Positions 11,720 to 27,257 of a DNA stretch of 57,367 bases are shown here, in pieces. The stretch spans positions 1 through 57,367 of the forward strand of contig REDH01000051.1 of the NCBI GenBank assembly GCA_007693585.1, in the 5' to 3' direction. Source of the DNA: Deltaproteobacteria bacterium (lineage in GTDB: Bacteria; Myxococcota_A; Bradymonadia; REDH01). Numbering within the stretch: position 1 is the stretch's first letter; the number at the start of each line of letters is the position of its first letter. Made by a program: the position numbers and the translations under genes. The notes beneath the pieces are model-generated. The model saw only the letters and a list, made by a program, of their open reading frames with translations, searched no databases and had not been told where the DNA came from.

Positions 11720-12460
11720 CTAGTCGGGCGGCGATCCAGGGTCCAGCCACCGATCGGGGAAGAGCACACGGGCGGTGAGTTCGGCCGCGGTGTCCTCACC
11801 GAAGATTCGGGCGAGCGCGTTGTGTTCCCGCCGGTTCGTGCGCTCCGCCTGCAGCCAGCGGCCGAGGCGGCTTGCGCGCTCCGGATCGGCTGTGTCCGCC
11901 CCGGGCACGAGCGCGGGCGCCAGCCGGCCCAGCCAGTGGGCGGTGGCGTCCACGGCGCGGGGAGAGTCCGCGGGCTCAAACCGGCCGATGATGGCTTCGC
12001 TCGAAAAGGTTCCGGTGGTGAATTCAGGGTGTGGGCGTTCGACGAAGGACGAGGGCAGCCCGGACTTCAGGTCGAGCAGAAGTCCGTGCCCGGTGGCGTT
12101 CCACCAGCTCGCGCAGATGGGCGCGAGATCCACGGCGTAGAGACTCAGCCGGCCCCCGAGCGCGATCAGATCCACGCCAACGACAGGGTTGACGGAGCCG
12201 GGATGAGGTAGCCCGATCACGGTCGCGCTGAGTGTGCTGCCGTCCACCTCGGAGCGGATATCCGCGACCAGAAGACTGAGCCACGCTTCGCCCCGCCAGG
12301 CGTCGACTCTCATGCGTACTGGTTTGCGACCGATCACGCCGGGAATGCACCGAAGATGCTCCGGGATCGACAGGGGCTCGGAAGCCAGCGACGGGACCAC
12401 CGTGTCGCGGCAGCCGGCGATGAGCCCTGCCAGAGCGTCGGAGAGGGTGTGCGAAGGCAT
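11720..12460 (-). CDS. Ferredoxin-dependent bilin reductase (PcyA/HY2 family, pre-PcyA-like)
   Basis: A 246-residue protein, the usual FDBR length. FDBRs reduce biliverdin with electrons from reduced ferredoxin in the cytoplasm. By eye it follows the PcyA scaffold. LPHPGSVNPVVGVDLIAL (84-101) matches the strand carrying the catalytic Asp of PcyA (Asp105), here Asp97. Then come LYAVDLAPI and FSSEAIIGRF. The C-terminal LQAERTNRREHNALARIFG plus AELTARVLF matches the conserved Q..N...L..FG...VLF end. The position of PcyA His88 appears to be Thr80, so phycocyanobilin is probably not the product. Its ATG lacks a clear ribosome site. It is divergent from murD and apart from the globin operon, but belongs to the same pathway. 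Confidence 0.83.
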   Translation of the reverse strand: MPSHTLSDALAGLIAGCRDTVVPSLASEPLSIPEHLRCIPGVIGRKPVRMRVDAWRGEAWLSLLVADIRSEVDGSTLSATVIGLPHPGSVNPVVGVDLIALGGRLSLYAVDLAPICASWWNATGHGLLLDLKSGLPSSFVERPHPEFTTGTFSSEAIIGRFEPADSPRAVDATAHWLGRLAPALVPGADTADPERASRLGRWLQAERTNRREHNALARIFGEDTAAELTARVLFPDRWLDPGSPPD

Positions 12461-15400: not shown

Positions 15401-16735
15401 TCACGGCGCAGCAGGGCTTCCCGAGACCTGGAAGGTGATCCGGGGCCGCGGGCCGTCGGTGGAGACGCCCATCGCGATGTGCGCTCCGGGCCGCTCGCGG
15501 AGCAGGCGCTGCTGTTCGTCGCGCAGGCGCTTGGAAAAGCGGGGATAGTCGATGTGCTGCATGGGCTGGCCCGCCCGCTTCAGCGCGGTGAGAAACTCCG
15601 TGTAGACGCGCCGGCACTCGCGCTCGATCGGATCGGCGACACCGTGGACCAGGTCGTGCCGCGCGCGGTCGATGAGGTCCGAGGAGACGTCCTGGCGGAT
15701 GGTCGGCACGGCACCGCCCGGCATGGTGCCGGTCCCGTGGATGTTGCGGGAGGTTCGATGGGCCGGCGCGTCGGAGCCGAGCTGTGCGTGGGTGTCCGGG
15801 TCGAGGGCCGTGGCGCGTGGGGCGAGGGAGCGCGAGGTGACCACGGCGTCACGCTTCCGTCCACCCGCCTGGTGCACGGCGCGGCGCGCCGGGGGGCGGG
15901 CGAGGATGGCGGCGGGCATCGACTGCGCCGGCTCGGGGTCGGCGAACGCGCCGGCGAGTTCCTCGGCCGATGCCTGGCCATCACCAACGACGGAGAACTG
16001 TCCCGGTCGATCCGAGGGTGCGCCCGTTCCGAAAGGGCTGGTGCGGGCAACCTGGCTGAGCGGTCGCACGTCGGTCGCCGCGGGGGAGTCGGACGGCTTC
16101 TCGAACGACGCAACCGGTCGGGAGCCGGGAGTGGTCGAAGGGTTCGGCGGCTGCCCGGGCGAGGCCGCACGAGGCTTGCTGGCGCCGGTCAGCGAGATGC
16201 CGCGCGAGGCCGGCCGTGGGCCGGAGGAAGCCAGGTCGGGGTCGACATCGGAGAGCGCGAACAGCAGGGAACGAAACGACGGCTGGTAGTCGTCCTGCGG
16301 CACGTCCTTCGGCGCGAGATCCTCGAAGAGGGAGGTCGCTGGTGCGGCGTTTGTGCTCGGGTCGCCAGGGTCGTCGAAGGCGGCGAAGAGATCGTCGGCC
16401 GTGGTCGCGTTGACGGATGGGACCGGCGGACTGTCGGCGTCGTTCGGGGAGACCGATGGCCGACCGGCGGAGGGTGGATCGGTTCGGGCCTTCTCCTGGG
16501 CACCGGAGATGCTGCCGTCATCGGAACAATCCGTGGATGCGAGGTCGTCTGCGTCCGCATCATCGCGTCCGGGCGCCGTTCGAGTGCGAAGGACGAACAC
16601 GACGAGGAGGCAAAGGAGGGTACCGGCGACCACTCCGGTTGTGACGCCGAGCCGGGGGGCGACGGGAAGCAGGATGCCGGCGGCGGATCCGACCGCGATG
16701 ACGGGCAGAAGCAGCAGGATGTTCTTGCGTGTCAT
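15401..16735 (-). CDS. Membrane protein with MXAN_5187-type C-terminal domain
   Basis: A 444-residue protein. Two membrane helices at residues about 5-50 (NILLLLPVIAVGSAAGILL and VVAGTLLCLLVVFVL) are followed by about 290 residues of disordered Ser/Pro/Asp-rich sequence. A conserved-looking C-terminal domain ends it (CRRVYTEFLTALKRAGQP, IDYPRFSKRLRDEQQRLL, RITFQV). That end matches my memory of the MXAN_5187 C-terminal domain of myxobacterial proteins, whose role is unknown. The start overlaps the stop of the upstream kinase (ATGA), so the two are co-translated and this may be the kinase's partner or substrate. Confidence 0.75.
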   Translation of the reverse strand: MTRKNILLLLPVIAVGSAAGILLPVAPRLGVTTGVVAGTLLCLLVVFVLRTRTAPGRDDADADDLASTDCSDDGSISGAQEKARTDPPSAGRPSVSPNDADSPPVPSVNATTADDLFAAFDDPGDPSTNAAPATSLFEDLAPKDVPQDDYQPSFRSLLFALSDVDPDLASSGPRPASRGISLTGASKPRAASPGQPPNPSTTPGSRPVASFEKPSDSPAATDVRPLSQVARTSPFGTGAPSDRPGQFSVVGDGQASAEELAGAFADPEPAQSMPAAILARPPARRAVHQAGGRKRDAVVTSRSLAPRATALDPDTHAQLGSDAPAHRTSRNIHGTGTMPGGAVPTIRQDVSSDLIDRARHDLVHGVADPIERECRRVYTEFLTALKRAGQPMQHIDYPRFSKRLRDEQQRLLRERPGAHIAMGVSTDGPRPRITFQVSGSPAAP

Positions 16736-18480
16736 GAGGACTCCGTGGACAGGGACAGGGCGAAGGCGCGCAGCACGGGGGCGTCGTCGAGGCATCGCGC
16801 CAGAAGCAGGTCTCCACAGGCGCAGACGTCCGGGCCCAGATCGCGAACGTCGAGCATTCCGAGCGAGCGGGGTTGCCGGGTGTCGATGCCCTGGACGTGG
16901 AAGGCAGTGAGGGCGAGGAGTCGCCCGGGCCGTGGCGCCAGAAGCTCGAGCACCGGATCCTCGGTGGGACAGGTGGCGAGCACGAAGCCCTGCCGGGAGA
17001 TGAGCTGCAGTCCGGTGCGCCCTTGCGCAGCGATGGCAACCCCGCCGTCCTCGAGGGACGCGAGGAGGGGCTGGCCGACCGGGACGGTGAGATCGGCACG
17101 CATCGCGCCCGTTGGGTCGAGGGCCAGGAGTCGGGTCCGGGGAGACTCGGTCGCGATCCAGAGCAGGTGTCCCTCGTGGTCGAAGGCAACCGGAGGCAGC
17201 GTGCCCCAGGCGCTGACGTCGAATGAGCAGGCCTCGCCCTGCCCGTGGAGCGGGATTCGCTGCACGGCATTCGGGGTGGCGACGGCGATGGTGGAGCCAT
17301 CGGGAGCTGCGCGCAGATGCCGGGGACCCTCGGGAAGACCTTCGTGGAGGAGGTGGAGGCGGCCTTCCCGGAGCTGCAGAACCTGACACCGGTCGACGAG
17401 AAGAGGGTGCGGACTGCGGATGGTTCCCTCGATCAGCACGGCCTCCGGGTGGGGACGCGGCGCCTGATCGATGGGTCTGCCGTCTGCCCCGATGCGAACG
17501 ACCCGGTCGTGCAGGAGCAGGGCGGCCTGACCGTCGGCCAGCGACGCGATCTGAAGCGGACGCACGGGCAGGCGCAGGCGCCAGCACGCGACCCGCTCCA
17601 GTGCATGGTCGTGGGGAAGCACATGGGCACCGGTCCAGCGCTCGCCCCGGATCGTTGCCAGCACCCGGTCGACCAGGGTCTCGAGCTGCGCCGCCGACGA
17701 GGGCCGATCTCCGGGCTCCTTGGCGAGGAGTGTTTCCAGCAGTGCGCGAAGAGCCGGATGGAGGGAGTCGGGCAGCCCGGGAGCAAGCTGCCGATGGGCG
17801 TGCTTCAGGGCGGTCTGATCCCCGTGGAACGGGCGGCGGCCGAAGAGCAGTTCATAAAGAATGACACCGAGTGCGTAGAAGTCCACTCGGTGGTCGCAGT
17901 CGTCCCCGAACTGCTCGGGAGCCATGTACGCCGGAGAGCCATGGTCGAGCTGGAAAGTGGTGCCGGGTGCGGCGCGATGCGCGAGGCCGAAGTCGCAGAT
18001 CCGCACCGGGTGCAGCTCATGGGTGTGCAGCAGCAGCAGATTCTCGGGCTTCAGGTCGCGGTGGACGATGTCCCGCTCGTGGGCGAACCGAAGGCCCCGC
18101 ACGACATCCCGCAGAATGGCGAGCGCGTGGCGGGCGGGCAGCCTGTGCTGACGCACGAGGAGATCGCGGAGGCTTCCGCCGGCAGCGTACTCGTACGCGA
18201 TGTACTTTCGACCTGCGGAGTAGCCGAAGTCGAGGGTGCGGACGATGTGGGGATGTTGCTGATCGAAGAGCAGGCCGAGTTCCTTCAGGTATCCGGTATC
18301 CCGAAACTTCACGTCGAATATCTTGATGGCGGCCGGCGTGCGGTCGGCGAGGTTGCGGGCGAGCCAGACCGTGCCGAATGCACCGCTTCCGAGGGGCCGC
18401 TCGAGCCTCCAGCGTCCCCCGAGGAGGGCGGATGGCGCAGGGGACGATGGAGGGTCGTGAGGAGAGTGGAGAGTGGCCAT
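16732..18480 (-). CDS. Ser/Thr protein kinase with C-terminal beta-propeller-like sensor
   Basis: A 582-residue cytoplasmic Hanks kinase. It has LGSGAFGTVWLA (30-41), Lys53, HRDLKPEN (140-147, Asp142), DFG (163-165) and SPAYMAPEQF. The C-terminal 270 residues are repeats of short strands (LHLLHEGLPEGPRHLRAAPDG, VAFDHEGHLLWIATESP, LLALDPTGAMRADL), suggesting a beta-propeller-like domain. There is no membrane helix. It lies 71 bases after V4R protein A and is translationally coupled to the MXAN_5187-type membrane protein, so phosphorylation signalling appears to be part of the globin operon. Confidence 0.9.
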   Translation of the reverse strand: MATLHSPHDPPSSPAPSALLGGRWRLERPLGSGAFGTVWLARNLADRTPAAIKIFDVKFRDTGYLKELGLLFDQQHPHIVRTLDFGYSAGRKYIAYEYAAGGSLRDLLVRQHRLPARHALAILRDVVRGLRFAHERDIVHRDLKPENLLLLHTHELHPVRICDFGLAHRAAPGTTFQLDHGSPAYMAPEQFGDDCDHRVDFYALGVILYELLFGRRPFHGDQTALKHAHRQLAPGLPDSLHPALRALLETLLAKEPGDRPSSAAQLETLVDRVLATIRGERWTGAHVLPHDHALERVACWRLRLPVRPLQIASLADGQAALLLHDRVVRIGADGRPIDQAPRPHPEAVLIEGTIRSPHPLLVDRCQVLQLREGRLHLLHEGLPEGPRHLRAAPDGSTIAVATPNAVQRIPLHGQGEACSFDVSAWGTLPPVAFDHEGHLLWIATESPRTRLLALDPTGAMRADLTVPVGQPLLASLEDGGVAIAAQGRTGLQLISRQGFVLATCPTEDPVLELLAPRPGRLLALTAFHVQGIDTRQPRSLGMLDVRDLGPDVCACGDLLLARCLDDAPVLRAFALSLSTESS

Positions 18481-18551: not shown

Positions 18552-19205
18552 TCAGCGGGGCTTGCGCAGCTCGGCGAGGAGCTGCTCGGAGGACGCACCA
18601 TCGAGGGCGAGCGCGCGGGCGGACTCGACCCGCTCCGGGACGGCGACGATGAAGCGGCAGCAGGGCGCGCCGGAGCGCTCGCACGCGATCTCGATGGCGT
18701 CGAGTTCCGTCTCGGCGAAACGGGAGGTCATCGCCGCAAGGAGCCCGGCGAAGATGTGACAGACCGTGTCGAACGGGCTGTCCGCGAGCAGCCGCGCGAA
18801 CACGGACCGGCGGAGCCTGAACTCGAGCAGACCTTCGTCCTCCAGGCCGAACTCCAGTTCGAGGTGGCCCCAGCCCTGATGCTCGAACAGCAGGCGCAGC
18901 CAGGTCTCGAAGGCCGTGAAGTCTGCGTCCGCCAGCGCGTGGCCATAGAAGTGGGTCCACTCCTGCTCCCATCGCCGGACGAGCCGCTCTCCCCATTGCC
19001 GCCCACAGCCGGTCATGATGAGCGGGAGCGCCTTGCCGGTCTCGTGCTCGGTCGCACGATGCACGCCGATGATGAGCTCCTCGGGCAGGACGAGCAGCTT
19101 GTGGCCGGACGCACTGCGGAGGGTACCCTCCCAGGCACTGGCCTCGATGTAGTCGTCCCTCAGGTAGAAGGGATGCGGAGCGATGTGGGCCATGGGAGCG
19201 GTCAT
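18552..19205 (-). CDS. V4R (4-vinyl reductase-type) domain protein A
   Basis: A 217-residue protein. The C-terminal half carries V4R features: SPFDTVCHIFAGLLAAMTSRF and DAIEIACERSGAPCCRFIV, with the paired Cys and E..C...G..CC.F pattern. The V4R fold binds small hydrophobic ligands or metals and occurs in BchJ-like proteins. The ATG at 19205 overlaps the globin stop (19202-19204) as ATGA; Met5 at 19193 is an alternative start. In published BBAG clusters two V4R proteins accompany the globin, as here. A role in binding or handing over bilin is inference. Confidence 0.8.
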   Translation of the reverse strand: MTAPMAHIAPHPFYLRDDYIEASAWEGTLRSASGHKLLVLPEELIIGVHRATEHETGKALPLIMTGCGRQWGERLVRRWEQEWTHFYGHALADADFTAFETWLRLLFEHQGWGHLELEFGLEDEGLLEFRLRRSVFARLLADSPFDTVCHIFAGLLAAMTSRFAETELDAIEIACERSGAPCCRFIVAVPERVESARALALDGASSEQLLAELRKPR

Positions 19206-19693
19206 CGCGCACCTCCACCGTCACGCTGCAGCGTGAGCAGTTCGTGCGTGCGACGAAGGTACGGGGCCAGCAGCCTGACCTGGTCCGCGGAGAGGTGCGC
19301 CTCCACCCGCTGCGGAAGCAGTCGGTACGTGGTGTCGATCACCGGACCCATCCGGAAGGCCTGCAGGATGGTGCGCAGCCAGTACAGCAGATGCTCCTCC
19401 AGGAACGTCATGTCCTGTCGGACCATGGCCTGGGTGCAGTAGCGCAGCACCAGACGGACGTCGCGCTCGCCCCTGGCCCGGGCATCGGCGTGACGGGTCT
19501 CGAAGTCGGGGTGCTGGGCCCAGACGGCATCGATGGTCTCCCGGACGATGGCATCCTCGTGGGCATCGACGGCGTGCATCGCGGAGAGCCGAGCGTCCAT
19601 TCCGGAGGCGAAGTCGGTGAGGGTGCGGGCCTCTTCCTGCGAGAAGTAGCGGCCCTCGGACTGACTGAAGAGCGACTGGAGGGATGGGTTCAT
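19202..19693 (-). CDS. Phycobiliprotein-like globin (bilin-biosynthesis-associated globin, BBAG)
   Basis: A 163-residue protein, the size of a phycobiliprotein subunit. The central helix RDVRLVLRYCTQAMVRQDMT and the following LEEHLLYWLRTILQAF align by eye with the RD..YYLR..TY...AGD...LDE..L.GL...Y.A stretch of phycocyanin and allophycocyanin. Arg77 and Asp78 match the Arg86/Asp87 that contact the bilin. The Cys84 that carries the thioether-linked bilin is replaced by Gly75, and the only Cys is Cys86. Binding, if any, is therefore non-covalent or unusual. A good AAGGAG precedes ATG 19693. Neighbours are two V4R proteins and a ferredoxin, the diagnostic BBAG company. Confidence 0.82.
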   Translation of the reverse strand: MNPSLQSLFSQSEGRYFSQEEARTLTDFASGMDARLSAMHAVDAHEDAIVRETIDAVWAQHPDFETRHADARARGERDVRLVLRYCTQAMVRQDMTFLEEHLLYWLRTILQAFRMGPVIDTTYRLLPQRVEAHLSADQVRLLAPYLRRTHELLTLQRDGGGAR

Positions 19694-19728: not shown

Positions 19729-20241
19729 TCACCAGTCGAGATCGCCGAACACGGCGTCGACGGTGGGCACGGGTGCCGCCCCCTCGGGGACAGGGGCGGT
19801 CTCGGCCGGCGACGAGGGCTTGCCGCTCCACACCACGGCGGAGAACCGCTGGCGCACGGAGCGGCCGATGGCGACCGCTGCGCGCTCCGGCACGCGCGGT
19901 CCATGCCAGGCGACGGCCTGCAGCCGAGCCCGGACGGAGACGCTTCCCGTCCGGGCGGAAGCGCTCTGCTCCGGGGCCGTCAGCCGTGATGCAGGCACCA
20001 TTGCTGGTTCGGGCTGGCCACGGTCCTGGACCTGGTTCCAGGCCGCATCCCACTCCGACGAGTCGGCGAGGGCTGGCAGGACGCGACTGCTGTCCTCCGC
20101 CGGAGGCTGCTGCTCCCCCGGAGCGCGACCAGGAGCCGGAACGGGTGGCGGCGGGGGCAACGAACCGGCACGGGACGAGCGACTGGCCAGCCCGAGGAGG
20201 CGGGACAGGGTGCTGCGGGTTCTGGGAGGCTGGTCGGTCAT
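19729..20241 (-). CDS. Proline-rich protein of the globin operon, unknown function
   Basis: A 170-residue low-complexity protein. Residues about 29-50 are a Pro-rich run (SLPPPPPVPAPGR). SEWDAAWNQVQ lies in the middle, a basic helix-prone segment (SVSVRARLQAVAW...VAIGRSVRQRF) follows, and an acidic-aromatic C-terminus DAVFGDLDW ends it. No known domain. It sits 15 bases after V4R protein B and 35 before the globin, with a GGAG site ahead of its ATG, so it is a real operon member. Its flexible build suggests an adaptor or linker rather than an enzyme (inference). Confidence 0.65.
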   Translation of the reverse strand: MTDQPPRTRSTLSRLLGLASRSSRAGSLPPPPPVPAPGRAPGEQQPPAEDSSRVLPALADSSEWDAAWNQVQDRGQPEPAMVPASRLTAPEQSASARTGSVSVRARLQAVAWHGPRVPERAAVAIGRSVRQRFSAVVWSGKPSSPAETAPVPEGAAPVPTVDAVFGDLDW

Positions 20242-20256
20242 GCGGAACTCCAGTGC

Positions 20257-20910
20257 TTACTGCTCGCCGAGGCGGCGAATGATGTCCGAGGCCCGGGCAC
20301 CTTCGCTCAACCAGAATTCCGCGGCGTCGACCCGCTTCTCGCTCCCGATCAGGAAGCGGCAGTGGTCCTCGCCCATCGCGTAGCACTGGATCTCGATGCA
20401 GCTCAGCTCGCGCCGGATGAAGGTGGAGAACGCTCCGGCCATCATCCCGGCGTAGAGGTGACAGACCGGCTTGCCGAGCGGCTCGAGGCTCTGCGCGACA
20501 GCCGAGTTGTACAGGTCCACCATGATGTAGCCCTGCTTCACCCGCGACAGGTCCACGCGCCAGGAACCCCAGCCAGCAGCGGTCAGCGGCCACCACCAGG
20601 TCTCGAGGACGAAGTTGACGTTCATGTCACGCGCGGAGCGCCCGAACTCGCCCTGGACGCGCTCCTCGAAGCGCTGCATGTCCACCTTCCCCCACTCGAG
20701 GCCGCACTGGTACATGATCACGGCGCTGGCCTCGCCCACCTCGTTCTCGAGACCCTCCTGCAGCCCGACGATGAAGTCCTCGGTGCACATCATGCCCACC
20801 CCGCCGTAGCCGAGCTGGAGCGCCGAGTCGCCGACGGTGCGACGCAGGAAGTCGCTCTTGCCGTAGTAGTTGTGCTTGCGGGCTTGCCCGCCGATCAGGA
20901 TGTCACTCAT
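20257..20910 (-). CDS. V4R domain protein B
   Basis: A 217-residue protein beginning MSDILIGGQARKHNYYGKSD. The C-terminal V4R domain is clear: PLGKPVCHLYAGMMAGAFSTF, LSCIEIQCYAMGEDHCRFLIG and the trailing helix. The Cys pattern matches V4R protein A, and the two have the same length, though the N-terminal halves differ. It follows the ferredoxin by 34 bases and precedes the Pro-rich protein. The start at 20910 has a GGTGGA site 5 bases away. Likely ligand: a bilin or another tetrapyrrole (inference from context). Confidence 0.82.
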   Translation of the reverse strand: MSDILIGGQARKHNYYGKSDFLRRTVGDSALQLGYGGVGMMCTEDFIVGLQEGLENEVGEASAVIMYQCGLEWGKVDMQRFEERVQGEFGRSARDMNVNFVLETWWWPLTAAGWGSWRVDLSRVKQGYIMVDLYNSAVAQSLEPLGKPVCHLYAGMMAGAFSTFIRRELSCIEIQCYAMGEDHCRFLIGSEKRVDAAEFWLSEGARASDIIRRLGEQ

Positions 20911-20944: not shown

Positions 20945-21418
20945 TCACGCGTCGTCCGCCAGGTCGTCGTTGACCTGAAAGTCGACGTCATTGAGCTGCA
21001 TGATGAAGCTGCGTGTGATGATCTTGCCCGGTTCGACCAGGACTCGACCATCGATCGGATGGAGAATGGCGGTGCGCGCCCGTTTCCCGATGAGAGACTC
21101 GATGTCCTTTCGGTCGAGCGCATAGAGCCCATCGGGCAACGACACGCGGACGCCCTCGCCACAGACCCGCGCCTGACATGCGAGGCGGCTGTTCGGACGC
21201 GTGCCCGACAGACGACCCAGCGTGCGGTCCTCCCGGGCGTTGCGCGGAGAGAGCGACTCGGACCCCTCCTCCACGAAGACGTGGCACGTGGCACAAAGAC
21301 CCCGCCCGCCGCACGCCATCATCACCCCGACCTCCTCCGCGAGGAGGGCGTCGAGCACGCGTGCATTGGTCTTGATCTCGGGCTGACGCCCGAGCGGCAG
21401 CAGGCTGACCTTCTTCAT
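20945..21418 (-). CDS. 2Fe-2S ferredoxin (plant/chloroplast-type fold) with C-terminal extension
   Basis: A 157-residue protein with Cys36, Cys42 and Cys45 in ACGGRGLCATC and the fourth ligand Cys81 in LACQARV, the spacing of [2Fe-2S] ferredoxins. After the ferredoxin domain (about 95 residues) there is an extension of about 60 residues (LDRKDIESLIGKRARTAILHP...IITRSFIMQLNDVDFQVNDD) also seen in some adenylate-cyclase-linked ferredoxins. It is the obvious electron donor for the bilin reductase. Its ATG overlaps the stop of the preceding gene (ATGA), and V4R protein B follows. Confidence 0.9.
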   Translation of the reverse strand: MKKVSLLPLGRQPEIKTNARVLDALLAEEVGVMMACGGRGLCATCHVFVEEGSESLSPRNAREDRTLGRLSGTRPNSRLACQARVCGEGVRVSLPDGLYALDRKDIESLIGKRARTAILHPIDGRVLVEPGKIITRSFIMQLNDVDFQVNDDLADDA

Positions 21419-23410: not shown

Positions 23411-24760
23411 TCAGAGGAGACCGAGCTTCTTCAGCCGATGCCGAAGCTGATAGCGGCTCAGACCCAGAAGCTTCGCCGCGGCGCTCTGATTGCCGCCGCA
23501 TCGATCCATGGCCTGACGCACGAGATGCGCTTCGACGTCCTCCAGCCGAACACCGCCTTCCGGAAGGACGAAACGATCCAGGTCGTCGGGTGGTGACGCA
23601 TAGCGCACTGCGGGTGGCAAGTGCTCCGGAAGAATCTGCTCTCCGTCCACGAAGACGGAGAGTCGTTCCATCGTGTTCTTCAGCTCGCGAACGTTCCCGG
23701 GCCAACAGTAGTCCAGAAGGTGCTTCGCGGCCGGTGCCGAGATCGTCAGAACGGGACGCTCGAACTGTCCTGCGAACGAGGCGAGGAAGACCCGAGCCAG
23801 TGCGAGAATGTCCTCCTTGCGCTCGCGCAGGGGCGGAATCGAAAGCGGGATGACGGCGAGGCGATAATAGAGATCCTGACGGAACCGGCCCTTCTCGACC
23901 TCCAGCCGGAGGTCTCGGTGGGTCGCTGCGACCACGGACGCGCGGAGAGGCAGGGTCTCCGTGCCCCCCACCCGGCGAAAGGTCCTGCTCTCGAGGGCCC
24001 TCAGAAGCTTGGACTGAACCCCCTCCGGGAGCTCACCCACCTCGTCCAGAAAGACGATCCCGTCCTCCGCGGACCCGAACAGGCCGAGCTGGCGCTGGTT
24101 CGCACCGGTGAACGCCCCCCGCTCGTGGCCGAAGAGCGTGGACTCGAAGAGCGCGTCGGGGATGGTCGAACAGTCCACCTCCACGAACGGGCGAGCGCGG
24201 CGGCACCCTTCGTGATGGAGCGCCCGCGCCACCAGCTCCTTGCCTGTGCCCGACTCGCCGTGCAGCAGGACGGTGGAAAAGTCCAGCTCCCTCAGTCGGG
24301 ACAGCTGGTCGAACACGTGGTGCATCGCTGGAGAGGCCGCCTGCAGCTCCGCGTATGTCCTCAAGGCAGAATGGGACTCCGGAGCGCCAGGGTTGCGATG
24401 TCCCGTTTCGCGTCGGAGCGACTCCAGCAGCCGCTTCGGCTCGAACGGCTTCATCAGGAACTCCGAGGCCCCCAGCCGGGTCGCCTTGACCGCCGAGGAG
24501 ACGTCCCCCTGACCGGTCAGGATGAGGACGGCTCCCTCGTACCCCTCCCGACGCAACGTCCGCAGAATCCGCAGGCCGTCCTCGTCGGGAAGTCCAAGAT
24601 CCAGGAGCAGGGCGTCCGGAGGCTCGAGCCGGACCCGGTCGAGGGCGTCCCGTCCGCTCGCCGCCTCCTCCACATGAAGACCGTCCGAACGCAGCAGGCG
24701 CACGACGCTCCGCCGCAGGCGGTCATCGTCATCACAGATCAGGACACGTCGTTGACTCAT
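23411..24760 (-). CDS. Sigma-54-dependent NtrC-family response regulator
   Basis: A 449-residue three-domain regulator. The receiver domain has the acidic pair at 10-11, phospho-acceptor Asp54, Thr82 and Lys104. The AAA+ domain has Walker A GESGTGKE (168-175), the sigma-54 contact loop GAFTGA (215-220), VFLDEVGELP and the arginine-finger region FRQDLYYRL. The Fis-type helix-turn-helix is at the C-terminus (GGNQSAAAKLLGLSRYQLRHRLKKLG). Start ATG 24760 has GGGAGAG upstream. It is divergent from a histidine kinase and flanked by the globin operon on one side and, past the kinase, heme oxygenase on the other. It is the likely activator of both. Confidence 0.95.
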   Translation of the reverse strand: MSQRRVLICDDDDRLRRSVVRLLRSDGLHVEEAASGRDALDRVRLEPPDALLLDLGLPDEDGLRILRTLRREGYEGAVLILTGQGDVSSAVKATRLGASEFLMKPFEPKRLLESLRRETGHRNPGAPESHSALRTYAELQAASPAMHHVFDQLSRLRELDFSTVLLHGESGTGKELVARALHHEGCRRARPFVEVDCSTIPDALFESTLFGHERGAFTGANQRQLGLFGSAEDGIVFLDEVGELPEGVQSKLLRALESRTFRRVGGTETLPLRASVVAATHRDLRLEVEKGRFRQDLYYRLAVIPLSIPPLRERKEDILALARVFLASFAGQFERPVLTISAPAAKHLLDYCWPGNVRELKNTMERLSVFVDGEQILPEHLPPAVRYASPPDDLDRFVLPEGGVRLEDVEAHLVRQAMDRCGGNQSAAAKLLGLSRYQLRHRLKKLGLL

Positions 24761-24883
24761 TCTCTCCCTGTGAACAGTGCATCCCGTTCGAGCCTGCGGA
24801 AGCCGTCTTCGCGGTGTCGAAACGGTCACCGACCACTCGCGCTTCTGCCGCTCCACTTCAAACCCCCGCCCGGCGCAACGAGC

Positions 24884-26431
24884 ATGGATGCATCCACACC
24901 GGATTCTGATGCGGAAACGCCACCGGACAGCGCTCCGGAACCCGATCGAACCACCCCGATCTCACGCGGGCTGCCGGTTCCCGACGATGTGAAGTCAATG
25001 CGCGCTCGACCATGGGTAGCGTCCCTGCTGGATCATCTGCCGGCGGGCATTGCCCTGATCGACGAGTTCGGCTTCATCCGGGACCTGAGCCGGGAAGGCG
25101 CGGAACTGCTGGGCGTGAAGCGACGGGAGATGATCGGCCAGCATGTGCTGGCCACGGTGCCGGACGGGCTTCGAGACGTGGCCATGGAGGCGTTCGATGC
25201 CCTCGTCCGCTCCGACGTGCTGCAGGATGCCGTCTGGCCCATGAACCAGGGTTTCGGAGGAATTCGCAGCTTGCGCCTGCGCCATCGCGGCTGGACTGCG
25301 CCGGATGGCAGTCGATGGGTGCTCGCCGTCGCGATGCACGAGCAGGAGAACGTCGATCGGGCTGCCGAATTGCTGCGCAGTACGGAGGTGATCGAGCGGC
25401 TGCTGGAGCAGCTCCCCGGGACGATCGCGCGTCTTGATCCCGCCGACATCGTTCGGTGGATGCGTCCCTCGGGCGGGGTGGCCGCCGCCATGAATCTCGA
25501 TCAGCGGGTCATCCATCAACTCAGCGATCTCGTGCCTGCGGACATTCTCGAGATCCTTCCGCCGTCCGTCCGCGACGGACAGCAGTCGTTCCGGTTTCGT
25601 GCCCGGGACGACGATCCCGACACCCTCCTCGAGGGCTGGTTTTTTCCCATGACCAGCGGAGAGTCGACCCTGCAGCTACGCCTCGTCCACCGAAAGGCAG
25701 GGCGCTACCGTCGGGAGCTGCAGGAGGCGATGGACCTCCTCTACGCGGGCCTCGCCCACGAGATCCGGAATCCGCTGGCGCTCGCGCGGACCAGCCTCGG
25801 CTACCTCGAACGCCGCCTCGATATCCCTGCGGACCCCGATCTGGCCGAGGCCTTCGACGACATTCGCGATGCGCTGCGACAGGTGGCCGATGTCCTCCAG
25901 CACATGCGCACGGTTCACCACGGCGTGGCATCGCCCGGGATCACCGACCTCCGGGAGGTGGTCGAGCGAAGCCTTCGGGTCGCCCGCGTCGGATTCCCGG
26001 ACGGGGTCGTCGTGCACCACGAGCCTGGCCCCCCCGCACCGGTACACGGCCCCCGGCAGCCCCTCGTCCAGGTGCTCGTCAACCTGCTGACCAACGCTGG
26101 AAACGCGCTGCGCCGGGTGCCCGAGAATGCGCGCTGCATTCGCATCGAGCTCCGGCGAGACGCCGACTGGCAGGTCCTGAGGCTGTCCGACACCGGCAAT
26201 GGCCTCGCGCCCGAGCAACTCCGGCACCTCTTCACCGGCGGGAGCAGCAGCCGGGTCACCGAGGAGTCCAGCGGACTCGGGCTCTTCCTCTCCCGGCAGA
26301 TCGTCGAGTCCTTCGGCGGAGATCTCGCCTTCGAGGGCCCATCCCGAAGCGGGACCACCGTGTCCCTGCGGCTCAGGGTCGCGGACGACGACAGGAAAGG
26401 GGAGACGGACACCGGGACCGGCAGCTCCTGA
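24884..26431 (+). CDS. PAS-domain sensor histidine kinase
   Basis: A 515-residue soluble kinase with no membrane helix or signal peptide. A PAS domain covers residues about 45-155 (LLDHLPAGIALIDEFGFIRDLSREGAELLG), and a second PAS-like region about 168-270 (LLEQLPGTIARLDPADIVRWMRPSGG). HisKA has His292 in LAHEIRNPL, and HATPase_c has NLLTNAGNAL, DTGNGLAPEQL and SSGLGLFLSRQIVESFGG. No GAF/PHY module and no bilin-attachment Cys are visible, so it is not a classical phytochrome; its signal is unknown. The gene is divergent from the sigma-54 regulator (123 bases apart), forming an obvious two-component pair. Confidence 0.93.
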   Translation: MDASTPDSDAETPPDSAPEPDRTTPISRGLPVPDDVKSMRARPWVASLLDHLPAGIALIDEFGFIRDLSREGAELLGVKRREMIGQHVLATVPDGLRDVAMEAFDALVRSDVLQDAVWPMNQGFGGIRSLRLRHRGWTAPDGSRWVLAVAMHEQENVDRAAELLRSTEVIERLLEQLPGTIARLDPADIVRWMRPSGGVAAAMNLDQRVIHQLSDLVPADILEILPPSVRDGQQSFRFRARDDDPDTLLEGWFFPMTSGESTLQLRLVHRKAGRYRRELQEAMDLLYAGLAHEIRNPLALARTSLGYLERRLDIPADPDLAEAFDDIRDALRQVADVLQHMRTVHHGVASPGITDLREVVERSLRVARVGFPDGVVVHHEPGPPAPVHGPRQPLVQVLVNLLTNAGNALRRVPENARCIRIELRRDADWQVLRLSDTGNGLAPEQLRHLFTGGSSSRVTEESSGLGLFLSRQIVESFGGDLAFEGPSRSGTTVSLRLRVADDDRKGETDTGTGSS

Positions 26432-26573: not shown

Positions 26574-27257
26574 ATGAACCACTCTGTCCTCTCCACGCGC
26601 TCGAACCCTCCCGTGCCTCGATCGCCCGTCGGTCGGCCGGATGGACAACCCCTCCACGTGCTCCTGCGAGACGGCACGCGGCAGGTGCACAATGCCATCG
26701 AGGAGGCCGAACTGCACAGACGACTCCTGGAGCACACCCTGTCCCGCCAGGAATACGCCCACCAACTGCAGATCTACTGCACTGCCTGGTCCACGCTGGA
26801 GAGCGTGGCCGCATCATGGCAGGCGAAGGCTCCGGAGCTCCTCGGTCTGCTCCACAGCCGCGTTCCTGCGCTCGAACAGGACCTCGAGCGCCTGGGCGCT
26901 TCGCGCTGGCCCCTTCCGGAGAAGGCGCTGGATCGTCTCCTGCGGTGGAGGGAGGAGGCGCTCGCAGAAGCGAGCGCCGGCAGTCCAGCGGTCATCGGTC
27001 GCGTCTACGTCATGGAGGGGGCCTCGCTGGGCGCCCGGATCCAGATCCGGCACTTGCGCCGTTGTCCGGAGGTGCCCGAGGAGGCCCTCACCTTCTTCAG
27101 CCAGTGCGCAGACCGGGAGAGCGGTCGGTGGGGCGCCTTTCTGCACGCCCTCGCTGCCCGACCCTTCGTCCGGACGGATGCCGAGGAGATCGTTCTGGGC
27201 GCTTGCCGACAGTTCGAGGCGCTGCACGAGCTCTTCGAGCTGTGCGTCCGGATCTGA
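26574..27257 (+). CDS. Heme oxygenase (biliverdin-forming)
   Basis: A 227-residue heme oxygenase of the bacterial BphO/HO type. LRDGTRQVHNAIEEAELH contains the proximal heme ligand, probably His39. The distal helix region is VIGRVYVMEGASLGARIQIRHL, matching the conserved Y-V-x-E-G-S-x-L-G-G segment. It opens heme to biliverdin, CO and iron, giving substrate for the bilin reductase encoded at 11.7-12.5 kb. ATG 26574 is the only good start before the domain. The first 25 residues are probably disordered. It follows the histidine kinase by 142 bases, has its own -24/-12 promoter, and converges with the flotillin operon. Confidence 0.9.
   Translation: MNHSVLSTRSNPPVPRSPVGRPDGQPLHVLLRDGTRQVHNAIEEAELHRRLLEHTLSRQEYAHQLQIYCTAWSTLESVAASWQAKAPELLGLLHSRVPALEQDLERLGASRWPLPEKALDRLLRWREEALAEASAGSPAVIGRVYVMEGASLGARIQIRHLRRCPEVPEEALTFFSQCADRESGRWGAFLHALAARPFVRTDAEEIVLGACRQFEALHELFELCVRI

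Follow-up and report, generated by a model that had tools for sequence, protein, structure and literature searches.

A phycobilisome-family globin encoded in the window (the whole 57,367-nucleotide stretch of DNA analysed) is probably a BBAG-3-type protein, encoded in a Myxococcota bilin cluster, in which the covalent anchor has been lost and the bilin pocket kept, and which would hold bilin reversibly. The BBAG (bilin biosynthesis-associated globin) family and its role in phycobiliprotein origin were described by Rockwell, Martin, and Lagarias in 2023 (PMC10151467), and the window globin adds a member to this known family, not a new kind. Four traits of BBAG-3 are present: a PF00502 globin, a [2Fe-2S] protein with two V4R proteins, an FDBR with the Thr/Asp residues, and a heme oxygenase. 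BBAGs bear on phycobilisome origins, and loss of the anchor with the pocket kept makes reversible bilin binding testable. A second BBAG cluster lies on contig 60 (C60) of the same genome. The features of the window are as follows.

11720..12460, minus strand, divergent FDBR, pre-PcyA-like (PF05996, E=4e-4, below cutoff; Polyangia homologues)
16732..18480, minus strand, Ser/Thr protein kinase directly downstream of V4R-B (PF00069, E=6e-51)
18552..19205, minus strand, V4R-B protein (PF02830, E=5e-7, just under cutoff; syntenic homologues; ATGA junction)
19202..19693, minus strand, BBAG-type phycobilisome-family globin, 163 aa (PF00502, alignments, AlphaFold2 model)
19729..20241, minus strand, Pro-rich 170-aa protein, candidate linker or scaffold (motif test)
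20257..20910, minus strand, V4R-A protein (PF02830, E=2.5e-18; 79% identical to the C60 paralogue)
20945..21418, minus strand, [2Fe-2S] ferredoxin-like protein (PF00111, E=3e-10; 70% identical to the C60 paralogue)
26574..27257, plus strand, heme oxygenase (PF01126, E=4.7e-16, above cutoff)

Read from 19693 to 19202 on the minus strand, a strand that the initial annotation did not give, the globin ORF is intact, starts with ATG, and has an AAAGGAG-type ribosome site in front of it. The TGA stop of the globin and the ATG of V4R-B overlap as ATGA. PF00502 (Phycobilisome) is its sole Pfam match, at E=2.6e-19 and 70.2 bits; the score is so far above the cutoff of 22.2 that homology to the phycobilisome family is not chance. 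The globin passes none of the curated apc, cpc, and cpe models, the best being apcB with 26 bits of the 228 needed. An AlphaFold2 model made with six sequences as input has a mean pLDDT of 85.8 and matches phycocyanin and allophycocyanin chains at a TM of about 0.8. In a phmmer alignment to solved phycobiliproteins, ARGERD of the globin stands opposite AACVRD or AACLRD. Gly75 aligns with the position of the bilin cysteine and Arg77-Asp78 with the bilin-contacting Arg-Asp, and the motif Gly75-Glu-Arg77-Asp78 (GERD) stands where CXRD is expected. Neither RGMC nor CXQD, the BBAG-2/photocobilin motifs, occurs in the globin. Its single cysteine is Cys86, eight residues past Asp78. The alignment and the minus-strand OR​F bear out the initial annotation on all three residue assignments: no cysteine at the attachment site, Arg-Asp retained, and Cys86 alone. 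Contrary to the wording there, the attachment cysteine is not universal, since phycobiliprotein subunits without it exist and most Myxococcota relatives lack Cys75.

On the minus strand, the gene order is [2Fe-2S] protein, V4R-A, Pro-rich protein, globin, V4R-B, and Ser/Thr kinase; the series of [2Fe-2S] protein, V4R, globin, and V4R is usual for a BBAG. The FDBR gene lies about 7 kb from the globin gene and the heme oxygenase gene about 7 kb on the opposite side, not within a single operon. A divergent NtrC-type response regulator (23411-24856, minus strand) is paired with a PAS histidine kinase (24884-26431, plus strand), and the heme oxygenase gene follows this kinase. By residue alignment, Thr takes the place of His88 in the window FDBR, and the Asp105 position is occupied by Asp. 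Thr88/Asp105 is the signature of pre-3 FDBRs (Rockwell, Martin, and Lagarias 2023, PMC10151467), and by these signature residues the window FDBR is of the pre-3 type. PcyA was not among the matches of the window FDBR in a phmmer search against the PDB. In tblastn, the window FDBR matches FDBRs inside the equivalent Polyangia BBAG clusters, down to 3e-36, and these homologues, one of which does match PcyA, secure its identity. FDBR and BBAG co-occur across genomes: an FDBR-like gene is held by 7/7 genomes of the phylum with a BBAG and by 14/379 genomes overall, in a search in which the FDBR of the window itself fell just short of the threshold.

The C60 cluster has its own heme oxygenase, Fe-S protein, V4R-A, motif protein, globin, V4R-B, and kinase. 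Its globin is 54% identical to the window globin and has Ala at position 75; a supposed internal stop in this gene was rejected, the position being the true stop codon. Downstream of the kinase, both clusters of this genome encode a membrane-anchored protein in which the stretch DYQPS[FY]RSLL is conserved (about 15401-16590, minus strand, in the window; L056:1883-3430, plus strand). Beyond the second cluster, contig 60 encodes a bacteriophytochrome-like hybrid histidine kinase (L056:3492-7337, minus strand).

A contig search across genomes with the two globins of this genome as query gave no match, a Polyangia-only globin alignment used as query recovered five named loci, and phage records yielded no relative. 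The phylum of the window's genome was taken as Myxococcota, because G232, which scored as being of the same phylum, has a globin 100% identical to that of a Polyangia genome. Second tandem BBAG copies are found at L050:9706-10143 and L046:4982-5407; neither G538b nor G320b contains any cysteine, and Arg-Asp is missing from G320b as well. The cyanobacterial BBAGs compared come from Acaryochloris plasmids only, and they keep CXRD. A second globin-like protein without CXRD, annotated as hypothetical, is encoded in the Acaryochloris clusters (L028:3249-3737 and L029:3254-3739).

Among 17 Myxococcota BBAGs, Arg77-Asp78 is kept in 16 and Cys75 in 4, which fits selection on the pocket and not on the anchor. 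Residue 75 varies among G, A, T, V, and L in members without the cysteine, and Cys75 is absent throughout the clade formed by the window's class. A concatenated tree joined the Fe-S, V4R-A, and V4R-B proteins to the globin, the latter stripped of position 75; tree building covered Myxococcota relatives and Acaryochloris. To explain the presence of Cys75, the concatenated tree requires at least four changes, a number imposed by well-supported branches, and the sister loci G232 (Cys) and G365 (Gly) differ at this position. The Cys-less state therefore reflects repeated change and is not demonstrably a relic. Judged from these residues, the covalent anchor has been lost repeatedly while the predicted Arg-Asp pocket was kept. 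Non-covalent bilin binding by the window globin is plausible by analogy, because the Cys-less ApcE2, ApcD3, ApcF2, and photocobilin bind bilin in this way. Several points weigh against the main reading: the FDBR and heme oxygenase genes are not in the operon, kinase orthology is unclear, and the BBAG-1 and BBAG-3 proteins tested in 2023 both had CXRD (PMC10151467). A literature search found no report of bilin binding for any BBAG-1 or BBAG-3 without CXRD.

A possible though less probable explanation is that bilin binding has been lost and that the globin acts in the V4R/Fe-S complex as a structural or regulatory subunit. Repeated loss of Cys75 would fit such a role, as would G320b, which has neither Cys nor Arg-Asp, and the poor chromophorylation of the BBAG-1 protein tested (PMC10151467). 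However, the Arg-Asp pair persists in all but one of the 17 members while residue 75 drifts, and heme oxygenase and FDBR genes remain in the neighborhood. Some family members, on the example of G320b, may nonetheless be apo-proteins.

The initial annotation had also proposed a role predating light harvesting. It is very unlikely that the Cys-less BBAGs are such a relic. BBAGs are part of a larger clade of bilin-binding globins, inside which the phycobiliproteins have been proposed to originate (PMC10151467), and the uniform absence of Cys75 in the window's class clade would agree with great age, but the repeated changes on the concatenated tree, including that between G232 and G365, oppose it. 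The cysteine is also present in phycobiliproteins, in Acaryochloris BBAGs, and in the tested BBAG-1 and BBAG-3.

Cys86 is found in 7 of the 17 Myxococcota BBAGs, namely 5/13 of those without Cys75 and 2/4 of those with it (G232 and G465). It is common to the window globin, the C60 paralogue, and the class relative G003, all without Cys75. In the model, it lies 11 residues (three helical turns) from position 75 along a predicted helix spanning residues 71-92. Chain 9i1r_J, a core beta subunit of a far-red phycobilisome, has YVRD and a cysteine aligned with Cys86; we infer that it is ApcF2 of the far-red phycobilisome paper, in which case the aligned cysteine does not form a linkage. Covalent attachment of bilin through a relocated linkage at Cys86 is very unlikely, even with its retention in the paralogue and G003 and with BBAG-2 proteins that bind biliverdin and have a Cys-containing RGMC in place of CXRD (PMC10151467), since Cys86 does not track loss of Cys75, would sit 11 residues along the predicted helix from the attachment site, and has a counterpart in a far-red phycobilisome, a type of complex whose Cys-less subunits are reported to bind bilin non-covalently. 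A compensatory role for Cys86 was dropped as the leading reading on the first of these grounds. Of the two modes of binding offered by the initial annotation, the non-covalent one is thus the natural expectation by analogy, and attachment through a novel cysteine does not find a basis in Cys86.

The 19729..20241 protein has no match in Pfam or NCBIfam. It contains three [ST]VxxxFxxxxW-type motifs, SVRARLQAVAW, SVRQRFSAVVW, and a C-terminal TVDAVFGDLDW. A motif matrix was built only from six repeats of the Acaryochloris cluster proteins. Scored with this matrix, 12 Myxococcota counterparts each have two top sites that exceed at least 994 of 1,000 shuffles, the motif having been spotted by eye before the test was built and the reading frames chosen by hand. 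When the entire window is scanned in six frames, the 19729..20241 protein accounts for three of the five highest-scoring motif matches. Counterparts include L041:8291-9366 and, in Acaryochloris, L028:2877-3756 and L029:2883-3245, and a Pro-rich [ST]VxxxFxxxxW protein between V4R-A and the globin is common to Myxococcota and Acaryochloris BBAG clusters. From its repeats, the window protein is a candidate multivalent linker.

A Ser/Thr kinase gene is present in 15/15 Myxococcota clusters examined and lies directly downstream of V4R-B in nine. The 4.97-Mb genome encodes 50 Ser/Thr kinases, roughly one per 100 kb, and they are denser in Polyangia. The best genome-wide match of the window kinase is the C60 cluster kinase, and its top matches outside itself are its counterparts in the clusters of contig 60, G003, and G538. 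For most Polyangia, the best match is encoded outside the BBAG cluster and there is no clear one-to-one orthologue, which indicates that conservation of the kinase concerns its position more than its orthology. In Synechocystis, Slr0144-Slr0149 interact, and the gene for SpkG, which is needed for ferredoxin 5 phosphorylation, closes the slr0144-slr0152 operon. The adjacent slr0150-slr0152, including spkG, were set aside for poor conservation (PMC10151467). Given the conserved kinase in Myxococcota clusters, SpkG may be no accidental neighbor. For BBAG-3/pre-3 clusters, the main text of PMC10151467 describes neither the kinase nor the motif-repeat protein.

If bilin is held reversibly, heme oxygenase would make biliverdin, and the pre-3 FDBR would reduce it using the ferredoxin of the cluster or another. 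The globin would hold the bilin with Asp78 paired to the pyrrole nitrogens and Arg77 to a propionate. Its partners in a complex would be the [2Fe-2S] protein, the V4R proteins, and possibly the motif-repeat linker, and the neighboring Ser/Thr kinase may read out bilin occupancy or redox state. More speculatively, and on present evidence doubtful, the cluster from Myxococcota to cyanobacteria would be a kinase-coupled bilin/redox signalling complex in which a disordered protein keeps the parts together, its [ST]VxxxFxxxxW repeats docking onto the globin or V4R proteins, and the anchor-less globin would be a reversible bilin sensor and not an antenna. The kinase and linker neighbors merit follow-up more than the absent cysteine, and both may matter more. 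Conserved as they are, they provide a first handle on the role of the cluster.

The closest known systems are the BBAG-3/pre-3 clusters (PMC10151467), which are likewise from Myxococcota and combine a PF00502 globin, an Fe-S protein, two V4R proteins, heme oxygenase, and a Thr88/Asp105 FDBR. The window differs from them in a globin without CXRD, in heme oxygenase and FDBR genes several kb away, and in having two clusters per genome. The slr0144-slr0152 and Acaryochloris plasmid clusters also encode two V4R proteins, an Fe-S protein, and a BBAG; the [ST]VxxxFxxxxW protein is shared with Acaryochloris (L028 and L029) and the terminal Ser/Thr kinase with the Synechocystis operon (SpkG). In contrast to the window, these cyanobacterial clusters lack FDBR and heme oxygenase, and the Acaryochloris BBAGs have an intact CXRD. 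ApcE2, ApcD3, and ApcF2 lack the canonical cysteine and are reported to bind bilin non-covalently in far-red phycobilisomes. They resemble the window globin in the lost cysteine and kept pocket, but they are antenna subunits of photosynthetic phycobilisomes, and no photosynthetic reaction centre (PF00124) was found in the genome of the window (G000). Photoglobins fall on the BBAG-2 side of the tree (PMC10151467). The photocobilin SasPcob is fused to a B12-binding domain, whereas no such domain occurs among the scanned neighbors of the window globin. SasPcob is nevertheless a comparable cysteine-free biliverdin-binding globin that relies on a key Asp: it binds biliverdin without a cysteine via Asp270, and AbPcob, with His in that place, binds weakly.
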